From positions 496,001-560,000 of the forward strand of contig NZ_CP083663.1 in assembly GCF_020097815.1 (NCBI RefSeq): a stretch of DNA of 64,000 nt, written 5' to 3'. Of this stretch, positions 50,894 to 64,000 are shown one piece after another (the stretch's first letter is position 1; each line of letters opens with the position of its first letter). This stretch comes from Haloprofundus salinisoli. Lineage in GTDB: Archaea > Halobacteriota > Halobacteria > Halobacteriales > Haloferacaceae. Both the position numbers and the translations under genes were made by a program. Under the pieces are notes generated by a model. The model worked only from the letters and a program-made list of their open reading frames with translations. It had not been told where the DNA came from and made no database searches.

Positions 50894-51295
50894 ATGTCAC
50901 AGAAACAGAACACTTCCGACACGGGGCAGAGTGACTCGACGCGTCGAACCGTCCTCAAAGCCAGCGCGCTCTCAGCGGGCGGACTCGCGCTGGGACTCGG
51001 GGGGACGAACACCGCCGCCGCCCAGCAGGGCGGCGGTCAGCAACAGCAGTACGACGCGCGGATGTTCGTCCAGGACTACCGCCCGGGGGCGCGGCTACAG
51101 ATCGTCTCCAATCCGATCAACTACACCCCGCAGAATCTCGGGTTCACTCCCTTCAACGACTACAACACCCGGATAGGGATGTACCGGAATACGAACGAGC
51201 GTGTGCTCGTCTTCACGCCGCAGAACGCGCAGATTCAGTCGGGGCAGAGCTTCACGCTCCAGCCGGACTTTTCGCTCTTTCAGGACAACGACTAG
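50894..51295 (+). CDS. Tat-secreted small protein with interrupted Gly-rich tail
   Basis: A 133-residue protein from ATG 50894. Tat signal STRRTVLKASALSAGGLALG is followed by AQQGGGQQQQY. The mature domain (DARMFVQDYRPGARLQIV, YNTRIGMYRNTNERVLVFTPQNAQIQSGQSFTLQPDFSLF) is beta-rich and stops at TAG 51293-51295. The same frame continues for 25 codons (GVISVTLASTGGGGQGGN and more Gly/Ser) to TAA 51371-51373, looking like the natural final strand plus Gly-rich tail. The stop thus removes probable native sequence. It shares the Tat plus Gln-run plus Gly-tail plan with the gene at 43868. Confidence 0.75.
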   Translation: MSQKQNTSDTGQSDSTRRTVLKASALSAGGLALGLGGTNTAAAQQGGGQQQQYDARMFVQDYRPGARLQIVSNPINYTPQNLGFTPFNDYNTRIGMYRNTNERVLVFTPQNAQIQSGQSFTLQPDFSLFQDND

Positions 51296-51452
51296 GGTGT
51301 GATCTCGGTTACGCTCGCTTCGACCGGCGGTGGCGGTCAGGGCGGTAATCAAAGCGGAGGCGGCGGCAGCTAAGATAACAGCGTAACGCAGGAATCGGAG
51401 AACCCTGCGTCAACCACCGTCGAAGAATCGAGTTCTTTCTCGGACGTGCCGT

Positions 51453-51570
51453 GTAGTCCCGGCGGATTCGACCCGCGGTCGCTCACTCCGTTCGCTCTCT
51501 GCTTCGAATCCGCGTAGTCACTATCACTGCTCGCTGACGCTCCCAGAAAGTAGTCCCGGGCGGATTCTGC
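51453..51570. other. Candidate integration site (attL-like repeats) next to integrase
   Basis: Two near-identical direct repeats lie just before the recombinase gene: gtagtcccggcggattc at 51453-51469 and gtagtcccgggcggattc at 51550-51567 (one extra g). A third partial copy in inverted form, gaatccgcgtagtc, is at 51506-51519. DNA composition changes at this point, from core-like GC-rich to accessory. The first repeat's reverse complement looks like a tRNA T-arm/acceptor end, but no complete tRNA could be built. This fits an attachment site; a matching copy should exist at the far end of the element outside the window. Confidence 0.4.
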
Positions 51571-51612
51571 TCGTAAAGGTAATAATCCTCTTCTGAGAAC
51601 AACTGAGCAATC

Positions 51613-53117
51613 GTGCCGAACCTCAACGATCTCAACAATGATAAAAGTAGGTTAGAAAGCCGCATCGAAGACCTACAAGAGCTCCCCCGAGAGGACCGGC
51701 AGCTCTTGCAGTACTGGCTAACGAACTTTCGCGACTCGAACGCCGACTCAACCACACTCGGCCATCTCGGGCACTTACTCACCCTCCAAGAAGAGCTCGA
51801 AGTACCACTCTCAGAAGCAACAAAGTTCGACTGGACCGACGCCGTCTCCACTCTCGCCAACGACCGCAACTGGACGAACGGCACAAAGCGGAACTACCAA
51901 AAATCAATCCGATCGTTTCTCGACGAAGTTGAGGAGGATGTAGCGGCGAACAAAGATGAGATCTCGCTAGCGAAGGACGACTCAGGGGGTAAGATCGACG
52001 AAGACGACATCCTCAGCCCGAAGAAGTCCGTATCCTGATTGACGAAGCCAGCAACCGCCTCAGGGATCAATCCATGTTTGCTGTCCTAATCGATTTAGGT
52101 CTCCGAATCGCTGCTCTGTGTTCTCTCAGGGTCAAGGACTTCGAATTCGAGGATGGCGCGAGCGTTGGGGAAATCACATTGAACGACGAAGCCCTCGGTC
52201 AGAAAGGAAGCGGTGGTCGTACACATGTCGCGACCATCAGCAGTGGGTACATCCGATCGTATCTCCGATCGGAGCATCCACGCCCAGAGGAGCCTGAGGC
52301 TCCCCTTTTTCACAAAATCGGGAGACACTATCGAGAAGATGACCCGAGCGACGACGGGTCCATCAGCCCCGCAGCGTTTCGCCGACGGATGCGTCGGTTA
52401 GCGACAAATACCGACATCGATTTTGAGAAACTGCATCCGCACAACATGAAACACTCAGCAGTAACAATCTGGGCACTTCGCGGGATGTCCGACCGGGAAA
52501 TCGAGTATCGAGCGGGTTGGGCACGCGAGTCTGGGCAGCTCAAACGCTATGAGCACCTTACCGGGGACAATGTCAACAGTCAAATCATCGACACGCTCGG
52601 TATTGAACATGAAAACGACGACGCCCGTACTGTCGCACCAATCAAATCTTGTCCAAACTGTAACGTCTCGATTGATTCGAGTATGCGATTCTGTCCGCAG
52701 TGTGGTCAAAAAATCGACTTGGAGATGCGCCCAGAATGGTTCGTGCAGTATATTGAGGAGTACGGGGAGGACGATGACCTCGCCACGACTCTGCTCAACA
52801 GTCCGTCCCAGATTGTTTCAACGCCCGAAGATCTGCCTGAGTCACATCGAAGCCGTCACCAGGATAAAATCGAACAAGTTGTGGGGTACTCGCTATTCGG
52901 ATCGGCGAGTCCAACCGACACCGACACCGCACCTCTGACCCTCCCATACGCTGACAACGAGACTGAAGAAACGACGGTTTGGGTTCCATTCGGTGTCCTC
53001 GAAGAACACGGTGACTCCCTACGCGTAAAACGCACCAGCGACGGATTACTCTCGCTGCTCGATAACGATGACAATGTTGTCGAGACAGTCGATCCGCTTG
53101 GGATTGATGACACGTAA
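51613..53117 (+). pseudogene. Tyrosine recombinase (integrase), frameshifted
   Basis: From GTG 51613 an N-terminal SAM-like DNA-binding domain (141 codons) runs into a premature TGA at 52036-52038. A neighbouring frame, opening about 52018, continues with EEVRILIDEASNRLRDQS and the catalytic domain: first Arg in IDLGLRIAALCSLRV, box II HPHNMKHSAVTIWALRG and the C-terminal Tyr in LKRYEHLT. A zinc ribbon follows (CPNCNVS, RFCPQCGQK) and an acidic tail. Total length is 1505 bp, one base short of 502 codons, so one base was lost at AGCCCGAAG near 52017-52021. In box II the usual second Arg of HxxR is Lys (HNMK). Confidence 0.85.
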
Positions 53118-53300
53118 CCTCGAAAGCAGGCTCTCACAACTCTAAAACAGGGGTATTTGCGTTCGTGAGTCTATCTCTACACCCCATGTGAGACTGGACG
53201 GAGAAGTCTATTCTGAATTCAACATAATTTGAACAACCATATTTTGGAAAAGCCACTCTCGATGTCCGAAATTAGGGTATACACGTCTCGTACCCCCAAT

Positions 53301-53537
53301 TCACCAGCTAGTAGCGGCGAGTATTTCCGTTACTTCTTCGAAGACACGGTACTGGTAGATGTTCGAAGTCAATCGAACAGACATGCTCGCAGACCACTGG
53401 TACTCTGAACTCAGTATGCACTGTGTATGCAGCACGCGCGGCCCAAACTGCTCAACTTCCGTCAGGATCAGCGTGACCGACTTAGAGGTTATATTCCGCA
53501 CTGTATTATCCAATTCATCACCTGCTGAAAAACTCAT
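53301..53537 (-). CDS. Small hypothetical protein after the winged-helix gene
   Basis: A 78-residue frame from ATG 53537 (MSFSAGDELDNTVRNITSKSVTLILTEVEQFGPRVLHTQCIL) ending EVTEILAATSW. It begins 22 bp after the stop of the winged-helix gene on the same strand, giving an operon-like pair. The sequence looks structured (beta/alpha alternation) but matches no family I recognise. An opposite-strand frame covers the same region and is considered the shadow. Confidence 0.38.
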   Translation of the reverse strand: MSFSAGDELDNTVRNITSKSVTLILTEVEQFGPRVLHTQCILSSEYQWSASMSVRLTSNIYQYRVFEEVTEILAATSW

Positions 53538-53558
53538 CTCCGATATCAAGGTTATATC

Positions 53559-53930
53559 TCACGGGGATTTTCCGAGCTGAGAGACGACAAAATCGTTGGT
53601 CTGGGAGGGTTGTTCAAGAGCCTCGCTAACAGAGAGGATCACGTCAGCCTCTGCTGACAGTCCCGAGATACGGACTTGCTCATTGGTGCGGTCGTATTCG
53701 ACGTGTGTAGCATCCTCAAGTTTCGGAAGGTGAGAGTGTTCTAGCGAGAGAATTACCTTTTGTAGCTCATCGTCGGGGATAGTGTCACACGACCCGTTCT
53801 CTTCCCACTCATAGATTTTCTCTGCGAGTTCGTCGATTGATACCGGGCTTTCCGCGCCCTTCAGGTAGTACAATGCAAACCGTCGTCGTTCCGTGCTGAA
53901 TAGCGAAAAGACCTCGTCTAGTAATTCCAT
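53559..53930 (-). CDS. Winged-helix (DUF7344-like) regulator of the accessory region
   Basis: A 123-residue protein. EVFSLFSTERRRFALYYLKGAESPVSIDELAEKIYEWE opens the DUF7344-type winged helix, and VILSLEHSHLPKLEDATHVEYDRTNEQVRISGLS is its recognition helix and wing. It is related in layout to the core-genome protein at 14648-14998. It probably regulates genes of the integrated region, including its own operon. Confidence 0.85.
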   Translation of the reverse strand: MELLDEVFSLFSTERRRFALYYLKGAESPVSIDELAEKIYEWEENGSCDTIPDDELQKVILSLEHSHLPKLEDATHVEYDRTNEQVRISGLSAEADVILSVSEALEQPSQTNDFVVSQLGKSP

Positions 53931-54100
53931 ACCACCCCCAAGTCAGTACCTGGAATATGAATTGCTCTCACTCAATTCATTAATCGTAGCGCGTGTAGAC
54001 TCACTCGCTACGGCGAGTATCTGTGCCGTATATCCATCTTCCCGAGGTCGAGCAATCGTGGCAACTCAGGGTATGTGTGTTTCCTACCCTTGACTATGCG

Positions 54101-54185
54101 AGATTCGCGCCTTCTATTCAGCACAGCCGCTGAAACCTTCCCAATCTATGTCAAATGTTGTATGCTGAATAGAGAGGGTATATTT
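54101..54185 (+). repeat. Palindromic dispersed repeat, copy 1
   Basis: Left arm 54101-54123 (with cttctattcagca), centre 54124-54162 (39 nt, includes atgtca), right arm 54163-54185 (tgctgaatagagaggg). Here the arms are a perfect 11-12 bp inverted repeat, tctattcagca/tgctgaataga. The end of the right arm contains gggtatattt, a TATA-like box 29-36 nt before ATG 54213. Confidence 0.8.
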
Positions 54186-54212
54186 CTCTTGTACTATACT
54201 ATTATAGGTACT

Positions 54213-54476
54213 ATGGACGACGACCAGCCAGAGGATCAGTCTCAAAAGTCACAACAGAGTTTACGAGTGGAGACAATGACGACTCAGTTCAATCCATCTC
54301 TCCGATTCGATAGCCAACTCTTGGGGCTAATTATTGCATTGGTTTTGATATTTCTGGCCGTATCGACGCATACGTGGGGTGACTACAGTATCATTATAAC
54401 GGGTAGTATTCTCGCCCTTGCCCTACTCGTCGTATTTATTTCGTTTCCGTACAGGATATTCCGAGAAGAGCGCTAA
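54213..54476 (+). CDS. Two-helix membrane protein (87 aa)
   Basis: An 87-residue protein from ATG 54213: a hydrophilic Gln/Ser-rich N-terminus (about 33 residues) and two membrane helices (LLGLIIALVLIFLAVST and YSIIITGSILALALLVVFISF) with a basic tail. It lies between repeat copies 1 and 2 as the sole gene of that unit. Function unknown. Confidence 0.6.
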   Translation: MDDDQPEDQSQKSQQSLRVETMTTQFNPSLRFDSQLLGLIIALVLIFLAVSTHTWGDYSIIITGSILALALLVVFISFPYRIFREER

Positions 54477-54518
54477 GCGACCGTTTTACACTGAGTGTCG
54501 AGACAAACGTAACGATGT

Positions 54519-54610
54519 GACCGATACGCGCGCTGTATTCAGCAGGCGGTGAGCGAACACCTCAATTGCTGTCAGTAACGGAGTGCGAGATACAGAGGTT
54601 CTATTCGGCA
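54519..54610 (+). repeat. Palindromic dispersed repeat, copy 2
   Basis: Left arm 54519-54544 (gaccgatacgcg then cgctgtattcagca), centre 54545-54583 (39 nt, with ctgtcagtaac), right arm 54584-54610 (tgcgagatacagagg then ttctattcggca). It starts 42 bp after the stop of the preceding plus-strand gene. Confidence 0.85.
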
Positions 54611-54662
54611 ACTCGGCGAAGAACATACATATGATTATATTTTATTGCTGAGGAGAGTAGGT

Positions 54663-55100
54663 GTGCAACACCTTCGACCCTCTCGGCGAAACGTGGCGAT
54701 TGGGGGCGTAACTGGGGTCGCTCACTTGTTGCTAATCACTATAGTGTGGCTCTGGTTTGCGTCTCGTGAGCCGTATCCAACGATGTATGAGGAGCCGGTG
54801 GCAGTGCTTTCCTATTCGTATCCGATGAACGTCTGGTTTATCGGTACCGTCGTAGGGCTTGTACTTCTCGGGCTGGTTCCGACTGTCCTGTTCCTCGAAC
54901 AGCAACTGGTCGTCCCCTCACTCAGCGTCGCCGTGTGGTTCGTGATTCACTTCGATAGTCACTGGCAAACGATTCATGAGCCATGGCGGGTGATGGGGAT
55001 TCCTCCGCTGGATTTCTACATTTTTGGCGGCGTCTACACGCTCACGACTGCCGTTCTTGGAGGAGTCGTCGAATACGCTGTCCGCCGATATCTAGCCTGA
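54663..55100 (+). CDS. Four-helix membrane protein (about 145 aa)
   Basis: A hydrophobic protein with helices around NVAIGGVTGVAHLLLITIVW, NVWFIGTVVGLVLLGLVPTV, LVVPSLSVAVWFVIHF and FYIFGGVYTLTTAVLGGVV. There is no ATG; GTG 54663 is chosen, but TTG 54645 is in frame. It is the only gene between repeat copies 2 and 3. It resembles other small accessory haloarchaeal membrane proteins without known function. Confidence 0.6.
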   Translation: MQHLRPSRRNVAIGGVTGVAHLLLITIVWLWFASREPYPTMYEEPVAVLSYSYPMNVWFIGTVVGLVLLGLVPTVLFLEQQLVVPSLSVAVWFVIHFDSHWQTIHEPWRVMGIPPLDFYIFGGVYTLTTAVLGGVVEYAVRRYLA

Positions 55101-55182
55101 ACAATCCGCTCAGACACTGGACAGTAATTGCGTGTTCTGAATCTCTGACTCTGTCCCTCTGTCAAGGAGACGATCGATAGGT

Positions 55183-55260
55183 GACCGATAAGCGCTCTCT
55201 ATTCAGCATAGCCACGATAAACACTCAATCCGGCGTCAGAACCGTGTGCTGAGACTCTTC
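55183..55260 (+). repeat. Palindromic dispersed repeat, copy 3 (right arm divergent)
   Basis: Left arm 55183-55208 (gaccgataagcg then ctctctattcagca), centre 55209-55246 (38 nt, with gcgtcagaac), right arm reduced to tgctgagactcttc (55247-55260). It ends at the stop of the minus-strand lipoprotein gene. Confidence 0.7.
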
Positions 55261-56128
55261 ACAAATCGTCTGTGGTTTCTGTCGATGTGCTGGTGGTAAT
55301 CGTGGTTTCTGTTGAACGCCGTCCACCACTCGATTGCATATTGAACTTCATGTTCGCATCACCGGTAGGCGAACTGATGTAGGGTGTACGTGAATACGTC
55401 CACGTTGCCGACTCACCCGCTTCGACTTCAAGCGCAATAGCCTCGACGGGTATGTAAGCAATTTCAGGACCAATACGGTTGAGCGCCCCGATGAAGGTCC
55501 CAGCTACCTCTCCAACATTCTCAACGACGAGCGTGAGAGTAACCGTGTCTCCATTCGCAACCGACGCAGGTGTGGAAAACTCACTTACCTCGAACTCGGT
55601 AGGCGGTCGCGCCAATTTTCTCACCATGTCCTCACTCAACTCATAGTTTCCAGTCGTCCCCTGAATCGCGATTTCGGTTGCCTCGAGAGGTTTAGGAACA
55701 GAGAACCAGACCGTGTCTGTCGGGTCAACCGTGTAGGTATCACCATTAACCCACGGAGAATCACTCCACGTAATTTCCTCGAGATTTTGAGGTGAGTAAA
55801 TCGTTCCGTCAGCTGTGAAAGTGATTGAATCTGTGGGAGAAATCGCGGAGATGTCTCTTGCAACTTTGGCGAAAACGAACTGCTCGCTTTCTCTTCCGTA
55901 CGTTCCGATCGAGTCTGGAGAATTTGGGATGACCAATGTTGGCGTGGTAACCACACTTTCGACGGACAACTCCGCTGTGCCCGTTGGGAGTGGTGTCTGG
56001 GTTTGTCTCGAAGGACTCTTTGTGTCGGTACCCGATTGGTTCGTTGAGTTACTGAGACACCCTGTGAGTGAGCTGAGGGCTGCTCCAGTGAGGCAAAGGG
56101 CATTGCGTCGGGACCAGAGGGAAGGCAT
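55259..56128 (-). CDS. Lipoprotein with Tat-like signal (289 aa)
   Basis: A 289-residue protein from ATG 56128. The signal WSRRNALCLTGAALSSLTGC combines a twin-arginine start with a lipobox LTGC, so it is likely exported by Tat and lipid-anchored. A Ser/Thr linker (about 25-50) leads to beta-rich segments (ISAISPTDSITFTADGTIY; FSTPASVANGDTVTLTLVVENVGEVAGTF; ESATWTYSRTPYI), the last resembling CARDB-type beta-sandwich domains that assist adhesion. It ends in a Thr/Ser tail. It is the single gene between repeats 3 and 4, and transcribed against the repeat direction. Confidence 0.78.
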   Translation of the reverse strand: MPSLWSRRNALCLTGAALSSLTGCLSNSTNQSGTDTKSPSRQTQTPLPTGTAELSVESVVTTPTLVIPNSPDSIGTYGRESEQFVFAKVARDISAISPTDSITFTADGTIYSPQNLEEITWSDSPWVNGDTYTVDPTDTVWFSVPKPLEATEIAIQGTTGNYELSEDMVRKLARPPTEFEVSEFSTPASVANGDTVTLTLVVENVGEVAGTFIGALNRIGPEIAYIPVEAIALEVEAGESATWTYSRTPYISSPTGDANMKFNMQSSGGRRSTETTITTSTSTETTDDL

Positions 56129-56582
56129 CGATTGAAGACAGTGTTCTGTGACGACGAATAAGCTTTCTGTGAAGTGTGTCGGCTGAAACGATGGAGGAAG
56201 TCAAAACGAGTGAAGTCTTCGCACAGTTGGTTGGGAGTCAGTGACCGAGACGCGCTCTGTATTCAACACGGCGTCAACAAAACTATTAGAAACTGAGGGC
56301 CTCAACAGAGCCGCGCCGTTCCCACGTGAGGGAACAGTCGGTGCTTGTGCTGACCGCGAGGTTGGGGAGGGCTGAGGCGGGTAGTTGCTGTGCGCTCGGC
56401 AGTCGTCTTCGTTACCTCAAGAACGCATCCGATAGCTGAATCACGAAAAGTCCGCTCCGGTACATCGACCACCACCTAACGCGGGGTATCTGCCGATTAA
56501 CTATATTTTGTTAAATTGACTTTATAGACAACAGCAATGTCAGGACCAGAACGTGTAAATAGAACCCACAGTGGTGTAACAG
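56129..56582. other. Gene-free spacer carrying repeat copy 4
   Basis: No ORF with coding character. It holds a degenerate repeat at 56243-56312, a GC-rich block (about 56313-56480) of different composition that may be relic DNA, and an AT-rich end with possible TATA boxes ctatatttt (about 56502) and ctttatag (about 56520) ahead of the gene starting at 56583. Confidence 0.45.
56243..56312 (+). repeat. Palindromic dispersed repeat, copy 4 (degenerate)
   Basis: The left arm 56243-56268 is well kept (gaccgagacgcg then ctctgtattcaaca). The centre is shortened and the right arm survives only as a short acagag segment around 56305-56310. Orientation matches all other copies. Confidence 0.65.
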
Positions 56583-57071
56583 ATGACTAATTCACTCGAC
56601 AGAAAGGCACAAACCGTTATTCGAATTGTCGGAGTTCTCTTTGCAATCGCTTCGGCAATTGCGCTCGTTGTCTCCTCGTATCCATTCACGCTCACTCTCG
56701 CTCTGATTCTTCTCCTTCTGCTATCCGTGTTTGCCGCCTTCAGACCAGGTGATGGCAAATCTGCCGGGAAGTACTTCGCTCCGATTATTTTCGTTTGTGT
56801 TCTCGTAATTAGCGTACTCACATTTTCGAGCTTCGACGTGGTCTATACTCTTCTCATGCTCACGTTTGCCGGACTCGCACTCTCACTGTTTCTTTTCGGA
56901 CTGGAATACGGCGTGGAAACCTTCCTCGTATCCGGTCTCGTCTGTCTCGCCTCTGCGTTCTACTTCTATCCGGCGAGGATCCTTGCAGCACTGATTGGTA
57001 TCACTACGGCCCTCATTCTCTTCTTCTACGCAGCAGTCACTAAGCGGAAACAAAAACACCAACTGGCGTAG
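56583..57071 (+). CDS. Polytopic membrane protein (162 aa)
   Basis: A 162-residue protein with about six membrane helices from residue 12 on (VGVLFAIASAIALVVS, FTLTLALILLLLLSVFAAF, YFAPIIFVCVLVISVLTF, LLMLTFAGLALSLFLFG, TFLVSGLVCLASAFYF, ILAALIGITTALILFF) and a basic end KRKQKHQLA. There is no recognised family. It is the main gene between repeats 4 and 5. Confidence 0.7.
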   Translation: MTNSLDRKAQTVIRIVGVLFAIASAIALVVSSYPFTLTLALILLLLLSVFAAFRPGDGKSAGKYFAPIIFVCVLVISVLTFSSFDVVYTLLMLTFAGLALSLFLFGLEYGVETFLVSGLVCLASAFYFYPARILAALIGITTALILFFYAAVTKRKQKHQLA

Positions 57072-57186
57072 AACTCGTCTTCTTCGATTATACTCCGGAT
57101 GGTACCTCTCCAGCATGTTCTCGACGTACTTCACCACCACGTCGATTTCAACGTGAACCGAGTCACAATCGGATTTTTCTGAGAGC

Positions 57187-57372
57187 GTGGTCGCAGGATA
57201 CTTTCCGCTCTTTCTCGTCGGAGCGTTCGTCTTCACCGTCACCTCCCCCGTCGGGCTTCCGTCGGTGTTTTTCGATATCGCGTATCCGCTCGTGTTCGGG
57301 GCCGTAGGAGGGTTGTTGGCGGACAAACGCGGCAGCGCATCAACGCCGACCGGAGAAGTCGCTGACGCATAA
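57187..57372 (+). CDS. Short two-helix membrane ORF, possibly a fragment
   Basis: A 61-residue frame from GTG 57187 (VVAGYFPLFLVGAFVFTVTS, FFDIAYPLVFGAVGGLLADKR). Two helices are visible and the tail is polar. The region between 57072 and 57187 has no matching frame. It may be a small gene, or the C-terminal relic of a larger membrane protein. It ends 62 bp before repeat 5. Confidence 0.4.
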   Translation: MVAGYFPLFLVGAFVFTVTSPVGLPSVFFDIAYPLVFGAVGGLLADKRGSASTPTGEVADA

Positions 57373-57433
57373 CGAGACTCAAGGTAACTTTTCGGAAAAG
57401 GTGAAACCCCTCTCAGATTCACTAGAGGGACAT

Positions 57434-57526
57434 TCTGCATTTGCGCCCTCTATTCAGCAGTCGGTGAGCGAACTCCTCAACGGCTGTCAGTAACGGAATG
57501 CGAGATACAGAGGGATGTATTCAGCA
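57434..57526 (+). repeat. Palindromic dispersed repeat, copy 5
   Basis: The left arm ends ccctctattcagca (57446-57459; the outer part is diverged), the centre is 57460-57498 (39 nt, ctgtcagtaac), and the right arm is 57499-57526 (tgcgagatacagag then ggatgtattcagca). Similarity to copy 6 continues for roughly another 60 nt after the right arm. Confidence 0.85.
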
Positions 57527-57610
57527 ATCGGGTATCGTTCTTTTCAAGTCCTCGGTGATGAAGCAGCCGTTAGGACGGTGAGCGTATTGATCGCTCGTCA
57601 TATATCTGAG

Positions 57611-58096
57611 TCAGAGAATTTCCACTCCGATATGATTAAGGACATACAGATGCAGTAAAAAACCACCCATAATTGTGGTCAGCATGAAAATCCTCGCTTC
57701 CTGTAAAAACACAACCGCCCACCACCCCCAGAGAAACATTGACGCACCGAAAAGCAACCCACTAATCGCAATTGCTACCGCGCCAACCCAGATCCACCGC
57801 CGCGTCTCCTTCCAGTCTTGGTATTCTGGTGGGTCATCCCGAGAGTACCGACGTCCCCTGCTGTAAAAGACGGCACCTCGAAGGAGAAAAAAGAGGACGA
57901 TGAGGAGGGTGAATGCGCCAAAGGCCGAAAGAGTAGGATTGAACGAACCAGTCTTAACATCTATGAAAAACGCCCCGAGGGTGCTGAGCAGAAGGACAGT
58001 AATGCCTGGCCCAATTATCATTCCTTCTGCAAGATAGAGGAGTGTTCGCACACGTTGAGACTGACTCGGAAGCGGCCAGTCAGAGTCATCTGTCAT
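57611..58096 (-). CDS. Four-helix membrane protein (161 aa)
   Basis: A 161-residue protein from ATG 58096 with helices around YLAEGMIIGPGITVLLLSTLGAFF, AFGAFTLLIVLFFLLRGAVFY, WIWVGAVAIAISGLLFGASM and IFMLTTIMGGFLLHLYVL. A polar loop (RGRRYSRDDPPEYQDWKETRR) lies in the middle. It is the sole gene between repeats 5 and 6, transcribed against the repeat direction. Function unknown. Confidence 0.68.
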   Translation of the reverse strand: MTDDSDWPLPSQSQRVRTLLYLAEGMIIGPGITVLLLSTLGAFFIDVKTGSFNPTLSAFGAFTLLIVLFFLLRGAVFYSRGRRYSRDDPPEYQDWKETRRWIWVGAVAIAISGLLFGASMFLWGWWAVVFLQEARIFMLTTIMGGFLLHLYVLNHIGVEIL

Positions 58097-58180
58097 CGCA
58101 ATAGAGACAATGCAATCCCCTGATAGATAGTTTCTCTGTATCTAATACTCGGTACGACCACCAATGGCGACTGACCGATA

Positions 58181-58271
58181 GCCGATACGCGCTCTGTATT
58201 CAGCACGGTTACGACGAACTACCCATTCCCTGTCAGAAGGCGCGTGCGAGATGCAGAGGGTGTATTCAACA
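58181..58271 (+). repeat. Palindromic dispersed repeat, copy 6
   Basis: Left arm 58181-58205 (gccgatacgcg then ctctgtattcagca), centre 58206-58244 (39 nt, ctgtcagaag), right arm 58245-58271 (tgcgagatgcagag then ggtgtattcaaca). It lies 85 bp upstream of the start of the minus-strand membrane protein. Confidence 0.85.
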
Positions 58272-58491
58272 ATCGAGCATCATTCGTTTCACGCCCTTAG
58301 TGGCGAAACAACCGGTAGGTGGGTGTGCGTACTTCCCAAACTCAGTTGTAATACTGGACTCTCATCTTGTTGACCACCTTTATCGCTATCGACCTCGGCG
58401 AGAGTTCCTCGGCGGTATTCTTCCGCTGGGGGATTTCGAAGTGACTATATCCGACGGTGAGAGTGACACCGAGAGTAGAGCCAAGGAAATA

Positions 58492-58752
58492 ATGTCCACA
58501 AAGAGAATGAGCCAGATGGACGTATTCTTCCGAATGGCCCGTGAGTTCCCCGTCCGCACCGGGATCTTCACGTTTGGCCTTCCGTTGTTTGCGCTTCTCC
58601 AGTTGATCAACGGCATCGTATACGACGGTTTGCTCCCCCTGATCGGTCTCTTTGCGGCGCTGACGGCTGCGTATTCGGTACAAGTCACTACCTATCACGT
58701 CGCAGCGTATCGGCGTGAAACGCTCTCACAACAGTGGATTGAAAATAAATAG
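58492..58752 (+). CDS. Two-helix membrane protein (86 aa)
   Basis: From ATG 58492 an 86-residue protein: MSTKRMSQMDVFFRMAREF, then helices FTFGLPLFALLQLINGIVY and LLPLIGLFAALTAAYSVQVT. The frame is open back to about 58300, but that upstream part is shared with repeat-flanking sequence and looks non-coding, so ATG 58492 is favoured. It shares a unit with the SPW-repeat gene. Confidence 0.55.
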   Translation: MSTKRMSQMDVFFRMAREFPVRTGIFTFGLPLFALLQLINGIVYDGLLPLIGLFAALTAAYSVQVTTYHVAAYRRETLSQQWIENK

Positions 58753-58786
58753 CGTGGCGTCCGAAGATGCCCTTTAGGTAACCTTC

Positions 58787-59233
58787 TCAGGTTGCAGTTC
58801 TTCGGTTTTCCGCTTCCTTGCGCTCCTCACGTGCCTCATAGGCGCTGTAGGCACCGAGGGCGAACGCGAGGAGGCCGACTATGACGTCGTTCCAGAACGC
58901 CAAGTCGTTGGTAGCTTCTGTGAACCCCGCGTCAGCGCCGAACATGAACGGCGCTGCGATGAGCCACAGGCCCAACAACGCAGCGACTGAAGCGGCAGCG
59001 ATGCTTCCAACTCTTTCGTTCGATCGACGGGAGTAGTTGTACGCGCCGACGGCAAACAGGAGGCCGCCAATGATGACATCGTTCCCGAACTGCGTGGCGG
59101 TGATGTCGAACATGATGGCTTGAATTATCATCCACAGCCCAAGCAGCGCGATGACGGCCGATAATCCCTTGCCGCTCTCGTCCGGGTTCGCGCTCTGACT
59201 GCGCGACCGCTCGTCCGTAGTATTGGTACTCAT
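58787..59233 (-). CDS. SPW-repeat membrane protein
   Basis: A 148-residue protein with a polar Ser-rich N-terminus and four helices forming two similar halves: ALLGLWMIIQAIMFD with NDVIIGGLLFAVGAYNY, and ALLGLWLIAAPFMFG with WNDVIVGLLAFALGAYSAYE. This doubled GLW...ND-I-GLL pattern is the SPW repeat, common in bacterial and haloarchaeal membrane proteins of unknown function. It converges with the preceding small gene. Confidence 0.85.
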   Translation of the reverse strand: MSTNTTDERSRSQSANPDESGKGLSAVIALLGLWMIIQAIMFDITATQFGNDVIIGGLLFAVGAYNYSRRSNERVGSIAAASVAALLGLWLIAAPFMFGADAGFTEATNDLAFWNDVIVGLLAFALGAYSAYEAREERKEAENRRTAT

Positions 59234-59412
59234 ATCAGTTTCCTCTCTTGTTAAGAGGCTGTCAATGGATGTAAGCGCGCTACTTGTAATTCCCAGTAGA
59301 AAAGAAGCAGAACTTCCTCTTCGCTAAGTTGTGTAATAAACGATGTCTGCGCTGATCAATAGCGTCTCTGTAGTGATCGATTCAGTTCGCTCACATTCGA
59401 ATGCCGATCAGA

Positions 59413-59504
59413 GACCGATACGCGCCCTCTATTCAGCATACCCACAGAAATCTGCTCAGTCCCTGTCAGAAACATCGTGCGGGATACAGAGGGTGTATTC
59501 AGCA
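59413..59504 (+). repeat. Palindromic dispersed repeat, copy 7
   Basis: Left arm 59413-59438 (gaccgatacgcg then ccctctattcagca), centre 59439-59477 (39 nt, ctgtcagaaac), right arm 59478-59504 (tgcgggatacagag then ggtgtattcagca). This is one of the best-preserved copies. Confidence 0.88.
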
Positions 59505-59566
59505 GCCTGTCGTTCGTTTCTCTGCTACTCAGGTTAGTGAACAGGCTACGATGAATAGGGTTGAGC

Positions 59567-60751
59567 TTACGGTAGCGCCGTCTGAAGATCCTCGCAGAGG
59601 TCATCGGCGTCTTCGAGGCCAACGGAAATTCGGACCAGCGTCTCGGGAATCTCCGCTGAATCGCCACTACGACTGAACTCGTCGGGGATCATTAGTGACG
59701 GCACCTCAACAAGGCTCTCAACCCCACCGAGACTTGCTCCCGGCGTGAATACTTCAAGTCCCTCGATGAACGCCTCAAGTTCGATGAGTGTACCATCGAA
59801 TTCGAAGGACAGCATCCCGCTGTACCCTGACATCTGCTCACTCGCAAGGTCGTGTTGCGGGTGGCTCTCAAGACCCGGATAGTGGACACGAACGACTCGA
59901 TCGTGGTTTTCGAGGAACCGGGCAACTGCCATCGCGTTCTTCTCGTGATGTTCCATCCGCGCGGGCAGCGTCTTGATGCCTCGCGCAACGAGGTAGCAGT
60001 CGAACGGCGAAAGCATATTCCCAAGTCCAACCCGCTGCGCGAACGCTAATTGCTCGAAAACCTCCTTGTCGTCGGTGATAACGGCACCGCCGATCGAGTC
60101 GGAGTGCCCGTTGAGATACTTGGTGGTGCTGTGAACGACGACGTCGGCACCCCGTTCGAGTGGGGCTTGGTAGTACGGACTCGCAAAGGTACTGTCCACG
60201 CCGAACAGGGCATCGTGGTCATCGGCGATGTCGGCTATCGTTTGGATATCGCACAACCTAATCAAGGGGTTCGACGGTGTTTCTGCCCAGATCAAGTCAG
60301 TGTCCGCGTTGACTGCATCGGCGACGTTGTCGGCGTCACGGGCGTCAACAAAGTCGATGTCAACGCCGAGATGTCCGGCCATGTGTTCCGTGAGCAGTTT
60401 TTCGGTTCCGCTATAGATGGAGTCCGAGGAGACGACGTGGCCTCCCGGGGGGACCAGCGACAGCATCGTCGTCGATGTGGCGGCCATTCCGGAAGCGAAC
60501 ACCAACCCATGCTCGCCGCCTTCGAGGCGGGCTAACTGCTCTTCGAGGGCTGCCCGAGTCGGATTGCTCTCGCGTGAATAGTCGTGTTCATTGGCGTCCT
60601 CCCCGCTGACCCACTCGAACGTAGTTGAGAGGTGGATCGGTGGGACGACGTCATTCGTTCCCTCCCTGTGAGGATGCGTCTCGGTTTTAGCTGCGCCGAC
60701 TGCGATGGTTGCGAATCGATTTCTGTCGGGCTGGTTATTGTGTCGTGTCAT
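59567..60751 (-). CDS. Trans-sulfuration PLP enzyme (cystathionine gamma-synthase/lyase type)
   Basis: A 394-residue PLP enzyme of the Cys/Met metabolism family. Substrate-phosphate motif DYSRESNPTRAALEEQLARLEGG, GLVFASGMAATSTTML, VDSTFASPYYQAPLERGADVVVHS and the PLP-binding Lys211 in HSTTKYLNGHSD are all present; the C-terminal SLGGVESLVEVPSLM fits. It catalyses gamma-replacement or elimination on homoserine or cysteine derivatives; the exact reaction is not readable. ATG 60751 is chosen because the long upstream open frame is non-coding. It is a metabolic gene inside the accessory region. Confidence 0.93.
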   Translation of the reverse strand: MTRHNNQPDRNRFATIAVGAAKTETHPHREGTNDVVPPIHLSTTFEWVSGEDANEHDYSRESNPTRAALEEQLARLEGGEHGLVFASGMAATSTTMLSLVPPGGHVVSSDSIYSGTEKLLTEHMAGHLGVDIDFVDARDADNVADAVNADTDLIWAETPSNPLIRLCDIQTIADIADDHDALFGVDSTFASPYYQAPLERGADVVVHSTTKYLNGHSDSIGGAVITDDKEVFEQLAFAQRVGLGNMLSPFDCYLVARGIKTLPARMEHHEKNAMAVARFLENHDRVVRVHYPGLESHPQHDLASEQMSGYSGMLSFEFDGTLIELEAFIEGLEVFTPGASLGGVESLVEVPSLMIPDEFSRSGDSAEIPETLVRISVGLEDADDLCEDLQTALP

Positions 60752-60897
60752 CGGATACTCACCACGGGACCCACTCGGACCCGATTTAGAGGGGTATTCA
60801 TAGTGATGTTCTCTGTTGTGAAGGATAGGCGTGAAGTTCCCGGCGAGGGTGGCCAGAAACCCAACCCCGACTTGCGTGTGGGTCAGCGAGTCGTTGG

Positions 60898-60920
60898 TTG
60901 CTAAATGTTGTATGCTTTGA
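60898..60920 (+). repeat. Possible remnant of a dispersed-repeat right arm
   Basis: The stretch aaatgttgtatgct, followed by ttgaggg, matches the end of the centre and start of the right arm of copy 1 (aaatgttgtatgct, then gaatagagaggg). No left arm is present. It lies in the spacer between the PLP enzyme and ABM genes, where an array copy would be expected from the spacing of the others. Confidence 0.4.
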
Positions 60921-60960
60921 GGGGAAGCGTCTTGTTCGCGTGGACGGGTGAATAGTCCAG

Positions 60961-61281
60961 ATGTATTTGGTAACGTTCCGCCTCGCTCCCGGTGAGTACG
61001 ATGCGGAGTTTCATGAGCTGAATGACGCGATACAAGCGGCTGCCGAGGACACGGAGGGATATCGGGGCAAGCAGACGTGGCATGCACCAGATAGTGAGGA
61101 GATTCTTGTCGTCTACTACTGGGAGTCGTTGGACGCAATCGAGTCGTTTGGAGTGGATACGGACCACAAACGTGCGAAACAGCGGTGGACGGAGTGGTAC
61201 GATGCGTATGAGGTCACCGTTACAGAAGTCGTTGAGAGATATGGAAGTGGGTTCGGTGACGATGCGAGCCCACTCGGGTAG
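60961..61281 (+). CDS. ABM (antibiotic-biosynthesis-monooxygenase) fold protein
   Basis: A 106-residue protein with the dimeric alpha/beta-barrel pattern of ABM domains: MYLVTFRLAPGEYDAEFHELNDAIQAAAEDTEGYRGKQTWHA, then ILVVYYWESLDAIESFGVDTDHKRAKQRWTEWYDAYEVTVTEVV. Members are small monooxygenases or degradases; no substrate can be assigned. It is divergent from the PLP-enzyme gene. Confidence 0.78.
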   Translation: MYLVTFRLAPGEYDAEFHELNDAIQAAAEDTEGYRGKQTWHAPDSEEILVVYYWESLDAIESFGVDTDHKRAKQRWTEWYDAYEVTVTEVVERYGSGFGDDASPLG

Positions 61282-61332
61282 GGGTTCGCCATGTTGGTTC
61301 AGGTGAAACTATATTTTAATAGTAATACATAT

Positions 61333-62217
61333 TCATTGGAGTTTCCCATCTAAGACCGGAATCACGCGCCCTCCGACTTCGACAATAATACCATCTGGCA
61401 TTTTCGCTGCTCGAAGTTGGAGGTGTGAGGGGCGATCCATCTCGTAGCCCTGTTCAACGGTGACCTCAATCTCGTCCGTGTCACAGTAGTCGTGCTCGAC
61501 GAGATAGGCGGCGAGGCAACCGTTTGAGGAGCCTGTAGCGGGGTCTTCTGGGACGCCAGCGCAGTCAGCGAATACACGGACATGCAGGTCGTTGTCCTCA
61601 GCCGTCTCAGAAGAGAACACGAGCACGTTCAAGTTGCCGTAGGAATCGATGAGCCGATTATAGTACGGTTCCAGTTGCGTCTCGGCTCGTTGGACGGCGC
61701 TGAGGGAGGTCAAGGGGACAACGACGGTGGGAAGACCCGTCGAGACAAGCCTGATTGGGTGGGAGTCATCGATATCCGCCGTGTTGAGACCGAGAATATC
61801 TGCGAACAGTTCCGATGAGAACTCGTCCTCGAAGGTCGGCTGAATTTGCCGCATCCAGTAGGTCTCGTAGCCGTCGTGGTTTTCGACCCAAACCGGAATC
61901 TGGCCGACGCCGAGATTAAGCACAACTTCCTCCGGGAGATCGTCTCGGAGGTGTTCACGAATTACGAATGCTGTTCCGAGTGTTGGGTGGCCGGCAAAGG
62001 GGATCTCCTCAGCGGGGTCAAAGATTCGGACATCGTATCCGGCCTCTGTCGTGTCAGGCGATTCGATGAACGTCGCTTCGGAGAAGTTTGTCTCACGGGT
62101 GAAAGCGAGCATCTCATCAGTAGACAAGTTCGATGCGTCACGGACGACTGCCAGTTGGTTTCCTGTGTACTTCCCTTGAGCGAATACATCGACGAAATGA
62201 ACTCGGTTAGTCGACAT
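61333..62217 (-). CDS. PhzF family isomerase/epimerase
   Basis: A 294-residue protein of the PhzF (diaminopimelate-epimerase-fold) family. The catalytic Glu47 lies in TNFSEATFIESP; IPFAGHPTLGTA and DPATGSSNGCLAAYLVEH are the conserved glycine-rich active-site loops. PhzF isomerises a phenazine precursor in Pseudomonas, but most homologues act in other, mostly unknown, pathways. No phenazine genes are nearby. It starts 73 bp from repeat copy 8. Confidence 0.92.
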   Translation of the reverse strand: MSTNRVHFVDVFAQGKYTGNQLAVVRDASNLSTDEMLAFTRETNFSEATFIESPDTTEAGYDVRIFDPAEEIPFAGHPTLGTAFVIREHLRDDLPEEVVLNLGVGQIPVWVENHDGYETYWMRQIQPTFEDEFSSELFADILGLNTADIDDSHPIRLVSTGLPTVVVPLTSLSAVQRAETQLEPYYNRLIDSYGNLNVLVFSSETAEDNDLHVRVFADCAGVPEDPATGSSNGCLAAYLVEHDYCDTDEIEVTVEQGYEMDRPSHLQLRAAKMPDGIIVEVGGRVIPVLDGKLQ

Positions 62218-62289
62218 TTGCGTCTATCGGTGTACGGTACATGAATATTTGTAGCGATTCTGACGAGGTTAAATCGTGGCGGTCTCTGT

Positions 62290-62381
62290 GAACGATATGC
62301 GCCCTGTATTCAGCACGCTTGCTGAAACCTACCCAATCCTTGTCAGAAACAGTATGCGAGATACAGAGAATGCATCTCTCA
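62290..62381 (+). repeat. Palindromic dispersed repeat, copy 8
   Basis: Left arm 62290-62315 (gaacgatatgcg then ccctgtattcagca), centre 62316-62354 (39 nt, ttgtcagaaac), right arm 62355-62381 (tgcgagatacagag then aatgcatctctca). Confidence 0.85.
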
Positions 62382-62457
62382 CGGAGACCTCGTTTATTCC
62401 GTCTCATCGGGGCTGAACTAACTGCGAGTAGAGCGTGCGCACCGAGTGATTTGGCAT

Positions 62458-62805
62458 TTAGTGCACTTCGGCTTGCTTCCTGCTCTGGAATCTGCTCCTT
62501 GCGAAATATAGACCCATGAGTACGACTCCGATTACGAGCCCCGCCATGAGATTGACCAAAAGCCACTCACGAGGATGAACCGCGATTGGTCGGGGTTTCA
62601 GTACCTGAAAGTACAGGTATCGTAGTTCCTGCGAAAACACGTATGGGACGAGGAAACTACCGAAACTGCCCCCACCACAAACGAGTGCCCGTACGAAGCG
62701 ACTGGTTGATGAGACTCCCCGTCTCACACAGGCGAGATACACGAGAACAGCTACAGCTACCCCGACAACAAGTCCGGTTCCGAACAGAATTTCGAGGAGA
62801 GTCAT
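62458..62805 (-). CDS. Three-helix membrane protein (115 aa)
   Basis: A 115-residue protein from ATG 62805: helices LLEILFGTGLVVGVAVAVLVYLAC, FVRALVCGGGSFGSFLVPYVF and WLLVNLMAGLVIGVVLMGLYF, then a basic end RSRFQSRKQAEVH. No family is recognised. It is the only gene between repeat copies 8 and 9. Confidence 0.62.
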   Translation of the reverse strand: MTLLEILFGTGLVVGVAVAVLVYLACVRRGVSSTSRFVRALVCGGGSFGSFLVPYVFSQELRYLYFQVLKPRPIAVHPREWLLVNLMAGLVIGVVLMGLYFARSRFQSRKQAEVH

Positions 62806-62917
62806 AGCGTCGGCGTACACGACAGACTATCTCGATTCGTATAAGATGTTTCGTCTGAGTGACCAGTGCAATATCTATACGGAGCAGTTCGACTCCCCAC
62901 ATCCAGATCGAACTTAT

Positions 62918-63009
62918 AACCGATACGCGCTCTGTATTCAGCAGCACCTCTGCGAACTACCAAGGTTCAGCCAGAAACACCGTGCGAGATACAGAAGCTC
63001 GATTCAGTA
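62918..63009 (+). repeat. Palindromic dispersed repeat, copy 9
   Basis: Left arm 62918-62943 (taccgatacgcg-like then ctctgtattcagca), centre 62944-62982 (39 nt, cagccagaaac), right arm 62983-63009 (tgcgagatacagaag then ctcgattcagta). It is the last copy seen before the remnants at the right end. Confidence 0.85.
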
Positions 63010-63073
63010 CGACCAAAACCGTGGACTCACACGGTTACAGCTCTGGGTCAGGTTTTGTGCTTTACACCGAGTC

Positions 63074-63233
63074 TCAATAGAAGCCGGGTTTCCAATCCTT
63101 CACCAGCTCAATCTCAGCCAAGTACAGAGACGGCAATTCCGTCTCATCATCTACCATCTGATACTGCGGCCACCACATATCCCTGTTAAAGTTCAGCGAG
63201 CGTCTCCAATTCATCAGGCGTGAGTGCGTCCAT
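63074..63233 (-). pseudogene. Fragments of a small gene in two frames
   Basis: From ATG 63233 a frame reads MDALTPDELETLAEL and stops at 63186-63188. A neighbouring frame continues with NRDMWWPQYQMVDDETELPSLYLAEIELVKDWKPGFY and ends at 63074. Together they look like one short protein split by an indel. The family is unknown and the call is weak. Confidence 0.3.
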
Positions 63234-63281
63234 AGCGATCTCGGAGAATACGAGTCTAGAGCCTCACCAGACTCAACTGAT

Positions 63282-63600
63282 GTGAAAATAAGCACGCAAC
63301 AGGACCTAAACTCCGAACTGTGGGGGCTCCTCGGTATCGCGTGGTTCGCGTTCGTCCTCGGGTTCGCACACGAGGAGAAGTTCGAGATCATCGCGCTCTG
63401 TACCGGGTCGAACTACTGCCTCGAACTCATGAGTGCGTGGTCTCACGGTCATCGTGGGTATCGTCGGACTGACGATGCTGTTGATTGCAGGCTACCACCA
63501 CTCCGAAAAACTGGTCGTGCGGTACACGCCGTATCTCCCCGCGTTCTCCGCTGCCGTTCTCACCATTATGGGCGTTGGTTTCATCGCAGGGGTCTTCTGA
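63282..63600 (+). pseudogene. Truncated, frameshifted nickel/cobalt-type transporter remnant
   Basis: The frame from 63282 contains LWGLLGIAWFAFVLGFAHEE followed by KFEIIALCTGSNYC, reminiscent of the C-terminal part of NicO/UreH-type metal transporters, which keep a conserved HEE motif. At about 63440 the sense moves to another frame, continuing LTVIVGIVGLTMLLIAGYHH to GVGFIAGVF and TGA 63598-63600. The N-terminal half of such a protein is missing. It is therefore a decayed fragment; the family assignment is tentative. Confidence 0.55.
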
Positions 63601-63703
63601 GGAGGATTGAACAAGGTGGAGCAAAGGAGCCAAAGATAATCGAAAACGCCATTCTACGTGCCGTCGGTAGAAAGTTACGCGAGAGTTCTTATCCTATCAA
63701 ATA

Positions 63704-64000
63704 TCACCTACCGAACCTAAAGTTCCAAAGATGTCGCAATTGACCTCGAAGACTAGCTGAGACAGCTCCATTGAGATACTGACGTCCGAGCGCCGTTATC
63801 CGGTATTTCCCCCGGTCGACTTTAGTCACGAACCCACGCTTTTCCAACTCAATGAGTCTGCGGTTCACCTCGTCACGGCTGTAATCGATGTTATGAGCAA
63901 TGATCGACGGGGTCAAGACGAGATCCGCTGAGTCGAACAGATTCAGAACTGTATCGTCAATCGGCAACATCCAGTCGGCGGGCTCGCGAACTTGGCTTGG
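63704..64000 (-). CDS. Winged-helix regulator (PhiH1-repressor-like), partial
   Basis: The frame runs from 63704 to the window edge; the last residues at the edge read PSQVREPADWMLPIDD, and proteins of this type normally have a few residues before the ADWM segment, so the start is probably outside. LTPSIIAHNIDYSRDEVNRRLIELEKRGFVTKVDRGKYRITALGRQYL is a clear winged helix related to haloarchaeal PhiH1-repressor-like proteins. It probably regulates mobile or accessory genes. Confidence 0.82.
   Translation of the reverse strand, partial: PSQVREPADWMLPIDDTVLNLFDSADLVLTPSIIAHNIDYSRDEVNRRLIELEKRGFVTKVDRGKYRITALGRQYLNGAVSASLRGQLRHLWNFRFGR

Follow-up and report, generated by a model that had tools for sequence, protein, structure and literature searches.

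Comparison of sequences makes it probable that the split tyrosine recombinase gene in the window (the whole 64,000 bp stretch of Haloprofundus salinisoli DNA analysed here) encodes the integrase of an island of ~30 kb at a tRNA-Gln gene, that the lysine it carries in place of the second catalytic arginine (Arg-II) is inherited, and that the enzyme most likely works like other tyrosine integrases. The window integrase represents a minor variant of the active site that is already known and that is inherited here in about three lineages of haloarchaea; the window holds one interrupted copy of it. The gene and its catalytic positions are as follows:

51613–52038, plus strand: N-terminal piece of the integrase (SAM-like/core-binding part), an ORF of 141 aa that stops early in a shifted frame
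51993–53117, plus strand: C-terminal piece (catalytic domain, zinc ribbon and C-terminal tail), an open frame
52017–52021, plus strand: place first proposed for the frame change, which fits the frames of the two collinear pieces
52104–52106, plus strand: box I Arg codon (GLRIAAL), from sequence and alignment
52203–52205, plus strand: beta-hairpin Lys codon (GQKGSGG), from sequence and alignment
52449–52451, plus strand: Lys codon AAA at the box II Arg-II position (LHPHNMKHS), from alignment and structures
52548–52550, plus strand: nucleophile Tyr codon (KRYEHL), from sequence and alignment
52650–52703, plus strand: zinc ribbon CPNC...CPQC, from sequence and Pfam

The ORF listed within the C-terminal piece spans 52074–53117 (347 aa), and its frame stays open for 374 residues from 51993. 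The first piece, taken with neighbouring bases, aligns with residues 1–148 of a homologue from Halolamina pelagica (L006) at 76%, and the second with residues 135–498 at 75%; because both align to this one homologue they represent a single gene, with the frame change between about 51993 and 52059. Start to stop measures 1505 nt, which by arithmetic matches a 501-residue protein minus one base. The original prediction of a one-base loss near 52017–52021 splitting a gene of ~501 residues is thus borne out by the collinearity of the pieces on L006 and by the agreement of frames and length. When the host genome was searched with the second piece (E ≤ 0.001), the sole further match covered the zinc-ribbon stretch.

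The C-terminal piece matches the Pfam family Phage_integrase (PF00589) at 42.6 bits against a cut-off of 27.1 (E 7.2e-11), and the zinc ribbon predicted to follow the catalytic Tyr is confirmed, although its PF13240 match is barely above the cut-off (25.4 bits against 25); the match of Phage_int_SAM_1 to the N-terminal piece is below cut-off. The box I Arg, beta Lys, box II His, Trp and Tyr are all kept, and five of the six positions in the R-K-H-R-H/W plus Tyr set are present, the exception being Arg-II. When aligned to PaXerA (4a8e) and XerD (1a0p) the window Lys sits on the Arg of their HxxR motifs, which confirms the reading of box II as HNMKHS and rules out a misalignment. A Lys at this position does not disqualify a tyrosine recombinase, because passages in the literature place it there in a small subset of tyrosine recombinases (PMC4499138) and in a few recombinases (PMC4381057); the residue is uncommon, as first stated, yet already described.

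An initial structure model was too poor (pLDDT 46.2) and gave no fold match at E ≤ 0.001. That of L006 is of moderate confidence (mean pLDDT 62.6, with residues 310–366 under 50) and has 26 PDB matches at E ≤ 0.001, all of them tyrosine recombinases by title (best E 6.6e-8), including XerA, Tn1549 Int, an integron integrase, XerD, XerH, lambda Int and Cre. The best sequence and fold matches are to Xer/XerA-type recombinases, and XerA-like 4a8e, XerA 5hxy and XerD 1a0p share with the window integrase the core-binding and catalytic domains, Arg-I, box II and Tyr. Xer recombinases act at dif, whereas the window integrase has a tRNA-Gln site and also differs in having Lys-II, a zinc ribbon and a further C-terminal tail. 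In L006 (L006:4596-6092) this tail, residues 375–499 beyond the zinc ribbon, is conserved in the window subfamily (clade A), and neither a Pfam family nor a confident fold was found for it. NCBIfam and PHROGs searches with five relatives, the window protein not being among them, gave Xer, integron, invertase and integrase families far below the NCBIfam cut-offs, and also a few weak zinc-ribbon or unknown families.

The Lys is not peculiar to the interrupted copy. Three homologues are full ORFs, from Natronomonas gomsonensis (L005, 496 aa), H. pelagica (L006, 499 aa) and a third genome (L007, 521 aa), and a fourth (L008; genome G140, L171 5389-6918) is open throughout and lies beside the end of its contig, with no ATG, GTG or TTG where its relatives start. 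All four read HPHN[LM]KH and are 58–76% identical to the window piece. Clade A thus has Lys in five of the five members found, three of them full ORFs, which contradicts the envisaged alternative that all homologues would have Arg and this copy would be a lone mutant; a lone mutation is excluded by the Lys in L005–L008. Nor is the Lys a product of decay, since the uninterrupted L005, L006 and L007 and the open L008 share it.

We compared 88 distinct haloarchaeal rows, obtained from 129 ORF hits at 128 loci by collapsing those with identical last 250 residues. At Arg-II, 79 have Arg and nine have Lys, although these relatives were picked for their resemblance to the window protein and L006, and 9/88 is therefore no measure of the frequency of Lys among integrases at large. 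Tyr is present in all 88 rows, the box II His in 84, and Arg-I and the beta Lys in 85 each (two rows have gaps at both of these, one has Arg-I replaced by Gln and one the Lys by Thr); the nine Lys rows keep the other catalytic positions. A CxxC...CxxC pair occurs in 87 of the 88, in Lys and Arg types alike, and the zinc ribbon, for which DNA targeting was first suggested as a possible role, is therefore common to the group and not peculiar to the window gene. A maximum-likelihood tree was built from 86 rows (the two short ones dropped and the Lys/Arg column removed); on it the distribution of Lys and Arg needs three changes, a number forced by well-supported branches and seen across 200 bootstrap trees (5–95% range 3–3), although, as the tree tool warns, three changes are not necessarily three gains. 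Clade A comprises the window protein and L005–L008, and its sister, L009, has Arg; the second Lys lineage is L010, whose sister L011 has Arg; and a further clade (C) consists of L035, L054 and L055, whose closest relatives have Arg. A search for co-changing residues common to the three Lys lineages and absent from Arg rows returned only the Lys column itself.

On viral contigs no relatives were found of the window protein or of queries A1, A3 and A5; query A4 gave eight, five of which entered the structure alignment. The six viral relatives listed and the integrase of Halorubrum virus HRTV-27, which are outside the 88 rows, all have Arg. Plasmid and phage searches gave only matches under 60% identity (8, 140 and 12 records).

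The integrase gene occupies the left end of an island that is defined by a synteny break, an att repeat and Pfam matches:

51551–64000, no strand: left 12.4 kb of an island of ~30.2 kb, whose right end at 81806 is outside the window
51551–51567, plus strand: attL core, a 17-bp copy of the 3' end of a tRNA-Gln(TTG) gene (exact 17-mer TAGTCCCGGGCGGATTC)
51568–51595, plus strand: element-side arm of attL (AAGG..AATCCTC), roughly an inverted copy of GAGGATTCG..CCTTT beside attR

The partner of attL, at 81790–81806 beyond the window, is the 3' end of the tRNA-Gln(TTG) gene (L167:17790-17862). Host synteny with four genomes of the same genus breaks at 51247–51363 and returns at 81763–81789. At this site G002 has the tRNA and a gap of about 0.3 kb, with the island absent. 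Direct repeats at both ends, one of which completes the tRNA gene, together with the empty site in G002, identify the region as an element integrated at a tRNA gene. In G001, G003 and G004 the same site holds about 8.6, 2.0 and 9.9 kb of other DNA, respectively, which marks it as an insertion hot spot; these sequences, between the host gene and tRNA-Gln(TTG), are in L161, L163 and L165–L166. A second, imperfect stretch resembling a tRNA 3' end (GTAGTCCCGGCGGATTCGA...) is present at 51450–51475, about 80–100 bp outside attL, and is perhaps a trace left by a previous insertion at this hot spot.

End repeats were sought in ten elements; the six in which they were found, five of Lys type and one of Arg type, are all at tRNA-Gln. 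The 17-mer of the window recurs a short way upstream of the Lys-type integrases in H. pelagica and G242, where its partner is at a distance of 19.0 and 26.5 kb, respectively, and the 20.6 kb element of N. gomsonensis has its own version of the repeat at tRNA-Gln(CTG). The Lys-type L010 (24.0 kb) and its Arg-type sister L011 (20.4 kb) are both at tRNA-Gln(TTG) with the same site layout. For the attR gene of H. pelagica (L172 1049-1131) the ARAGORN call is tRNA-Thr; we read the sequence as that of a tRNA-Gln interrupted by an insert that is probably an intron. No end repeat of 13 or more bases was found in G202, which carries the Arg-type sister L009, and none of at least 14 bases within the DNA examined of the clade C elements of G088, G032 and G013; the contig of G140 stops beside its integrase. 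With the six elements lined up, GGATTCG stands at a fixed distance on the attR side, each of its bases being present in at least five of the six. The best 9-mer dyad with the attL arm was equalled in 1 of 2000 shuffles for the window, 29 for H. pelagica and 191–394 for the other four elements, and the inverted partner of the attR-side motif is correspondingly clear in the first two and weak in the others.

Beyond these ends the six elements have little in common. When their ORFs were compared (a mechanical selection without overlaps, each ORF at least 60 aa long), the integrase was the only one matching in all six; some pairs share a few further ORFs, and the other ORFs of the window island match none of the other five. 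Pfam searches of 19 of the 43 island ORFs gave metabolic, transport and regulatory families, with three ORFs lacking a match, and no replication or capsid families among those scanned. The cargo (window 59567–62217 and L167 1718-17523) includes a Cys/Met-metabolism PLP enzyme, a PhzF-like protein, a GH15/trehalase-like protein, an SDR, a P-type ATPase, DoxX, a glyoxalase, a zinc alcohol dehydrogenase, two HxlR regulators and others; the PLP enzyme and the PhzF-like protein are in the left 12.4 kb within the window.

The second Lys clade, clade C, offers further evidence on whether the Lys type works. Its integrases in three genera (G088, G032 and G013) are 97–98% identical; the later-found copies of this set are not in the 88 rows. 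With dN/dS of 0.07–0.10 among the three close copies, clade C is, as judged from these substitutions, evolving under purifying selection. Lys is kept in five open clade C frames, and a decayed copy (L134) has Asn in its place and no CxxC pair. G088 and G032 are 72–85% identical in their host-side pieces; an unaligned gap of ~1.1 kb follows, and identity then rises to 94% where the integrase block begins. G013 and G088 have a 2.8 kb block in common at 94%, and matching (82–92%) resumes only about 2.2 kb further on, showing that the cargo of G013 differs. The integrase neighbourhood also contains a gene that we take, from its sequence, to be rlmE-like:

L145 14564–19442: clade C integrase and rlmE-like neighbourhood, with matching places in L147, L149 and L187–L190

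The rlmE-like gene is 1–3 kb from the integrase in G088, G032, G013 and G033, and about 15 kb away in G278. No tRNA genes were found in the clade C loci L145–L148.

The presence of Lys-type integrases in elements with tRNA-Gln end repeats, together with the conservation and dN/dS of clade C, argues that Lys-II integrases most likely work, and speaks against the earlier suggestion that the enzyme was inactive before the frameshift. The broken window copy, the decayed L134, the lack of a usual start codon in L008 and the absence of replication and capsid families from the ORFs scanned would fit Lys-II integrases that are dead or crippled, as remnants fixed after integration of which the window copy is one further step in decay, but we consider this improbable: Lys is retained in three full clade A ORFs and five open clade C frames, the nine Lys rows keep their other catalytic residues, clade C shows low dN/dS, and nearly identical copies occur in three genera, one of them (G013) with different cargo. 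The integration itself could also have been performed by another recombinase in trans, or by Arg-bearing ancestors prior to the switch.

We infer catalytic activity and the role of Lys-II along the following lines. The enzyme is one of a group of Xer-like haloarchaeal tyrosine recombinases that carry a zinc ribbon in their C-terminal part, and its branch of this group has Lys-II by descent. A circular element would be integrated by the tyrosine recombinase into the 3' end of tRNA-Gln, with Tyr attacking the scissile phosphate within the core derived from the tRNA, the usual roles falling to Arg-I, beta-Lys, His and Trp, and Lys-II giving the phosphate the positive charge that normally comes from Arg-II. 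The window copy is interrupted, either by a recent mutation or by a sequence error. Lys-II probably takes the place of Arg-II in contacting the scissile phosphate. Cre R292K is the identical single-residue swap, engineered in Cre but natural and inherited here; a passage of PMC4499138, crediting Gibb et al. 2010, describes it as "reasonably well tolerated". The same source reports that Flp R308K on methylphosphonate DNA uses water in place of Tyr, behaviour that, by analogy, would count against ordinary catalysis with Lys-II. The idea that this subfamily uses a different active site holds for the one residue, Arg-II to Lys, but not further, with the other catalytic positions kept and no common co-change.

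A different reading is that Arg-II changed to Lys about three times without shared compensation because Lys is a selected tuning beyond a tolerated swap, being kept for altering the integration/excision balance or the speed of recombination (making it, for example, slower or more one-way). The three changes on the tree and the conservation of Lys within clades A and C would be expected of such selection, but drift between similar residues fits the data equally, no co-changing residue is common to the Lys lineages, and the Arg-type L011 and Lys-type L010 have the same kind of target and the same site layout; we regard this reading as rather unlikely.

As to the frame change, it may quite possibly be a sequencing or assembly error, in which case the living strain has an intact gene. 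No other lesion was found in the integrase gene, and dN from the second piece to L005–L007 (0.19–0.23) is no higher than among those three themselves (0.20–0.28; L006 to L008, 0.36), suggesting that the lesion is recent or a sequence error, although the comparison is rough with the N-terminal part absent. With synonymous sites near saturation in clade A (pS 0.69–0.85), its dN/dS is likewise rough. A rough look at split genes in the flanks gave 3/58, 5/57 and 4/59 mechanical ORFs split, some probably antisense, which indicates a sequence neither clean nor error-laden. If the frame change is real, the island is probably unable to excise by itself.

Among known archaeal systems, SNJ2 targets tRNA-Met, another tRNA than here, and small accessory genes orf2 and orf3 in the integrase operon are a further mark of the SNJ2 type. 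No SNJ2 integrase is among the plasmid and phage matches listed. SNJ2-type systems are nonetheless alike in being haloarchaeal, residing in mobile elements and integrating with a short core at a tRNA 3' end, the group being delimited by at least 30% identity over 60% of the protein (passages of PMC8371274). SSV1- and pNOB8-type archaeal integrases have an altered box II, KxxR or YxxR (passages of PMC8371274), and so vary the His and keep the Arg, whereas the window integrase keeps the His and varies the Arg. In the suicidal SSV type the att site is inside the gene, whereas the window att is outside it, the start codon being 45 bp downstream of the 17-bp repeat. Passages of PMC8138268 describe active-site variants at Arg-I and the box II His only, and the review PMC8371274 mentions neither 'lysine' nor 'zinc'. 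Literature searches by HxxK or arginine-to-lysine wording found no matching paper, and one on zinc ribbons and haloarchaea found nothing related.

The enzymes described here only add members to a class in which Lys-II has been described before, in a few recombinases, and new chemistry is not demonstrated. They caution that a box II reading HxxK is poor ground for calling an integrase dead, and they add a tRNA-Gln integrase module with largely different cargo across several haloarchaeal genera. L010 and L011 form a natural Lys/Arg pair for probing the role of Arg-II, whereas the studies cited used engineered Cre and Flp. The Lys, which looks inherited and not like damage, makes this family a modest but useful natural experiment on the well-known mechanism of tyrosine recombinases.
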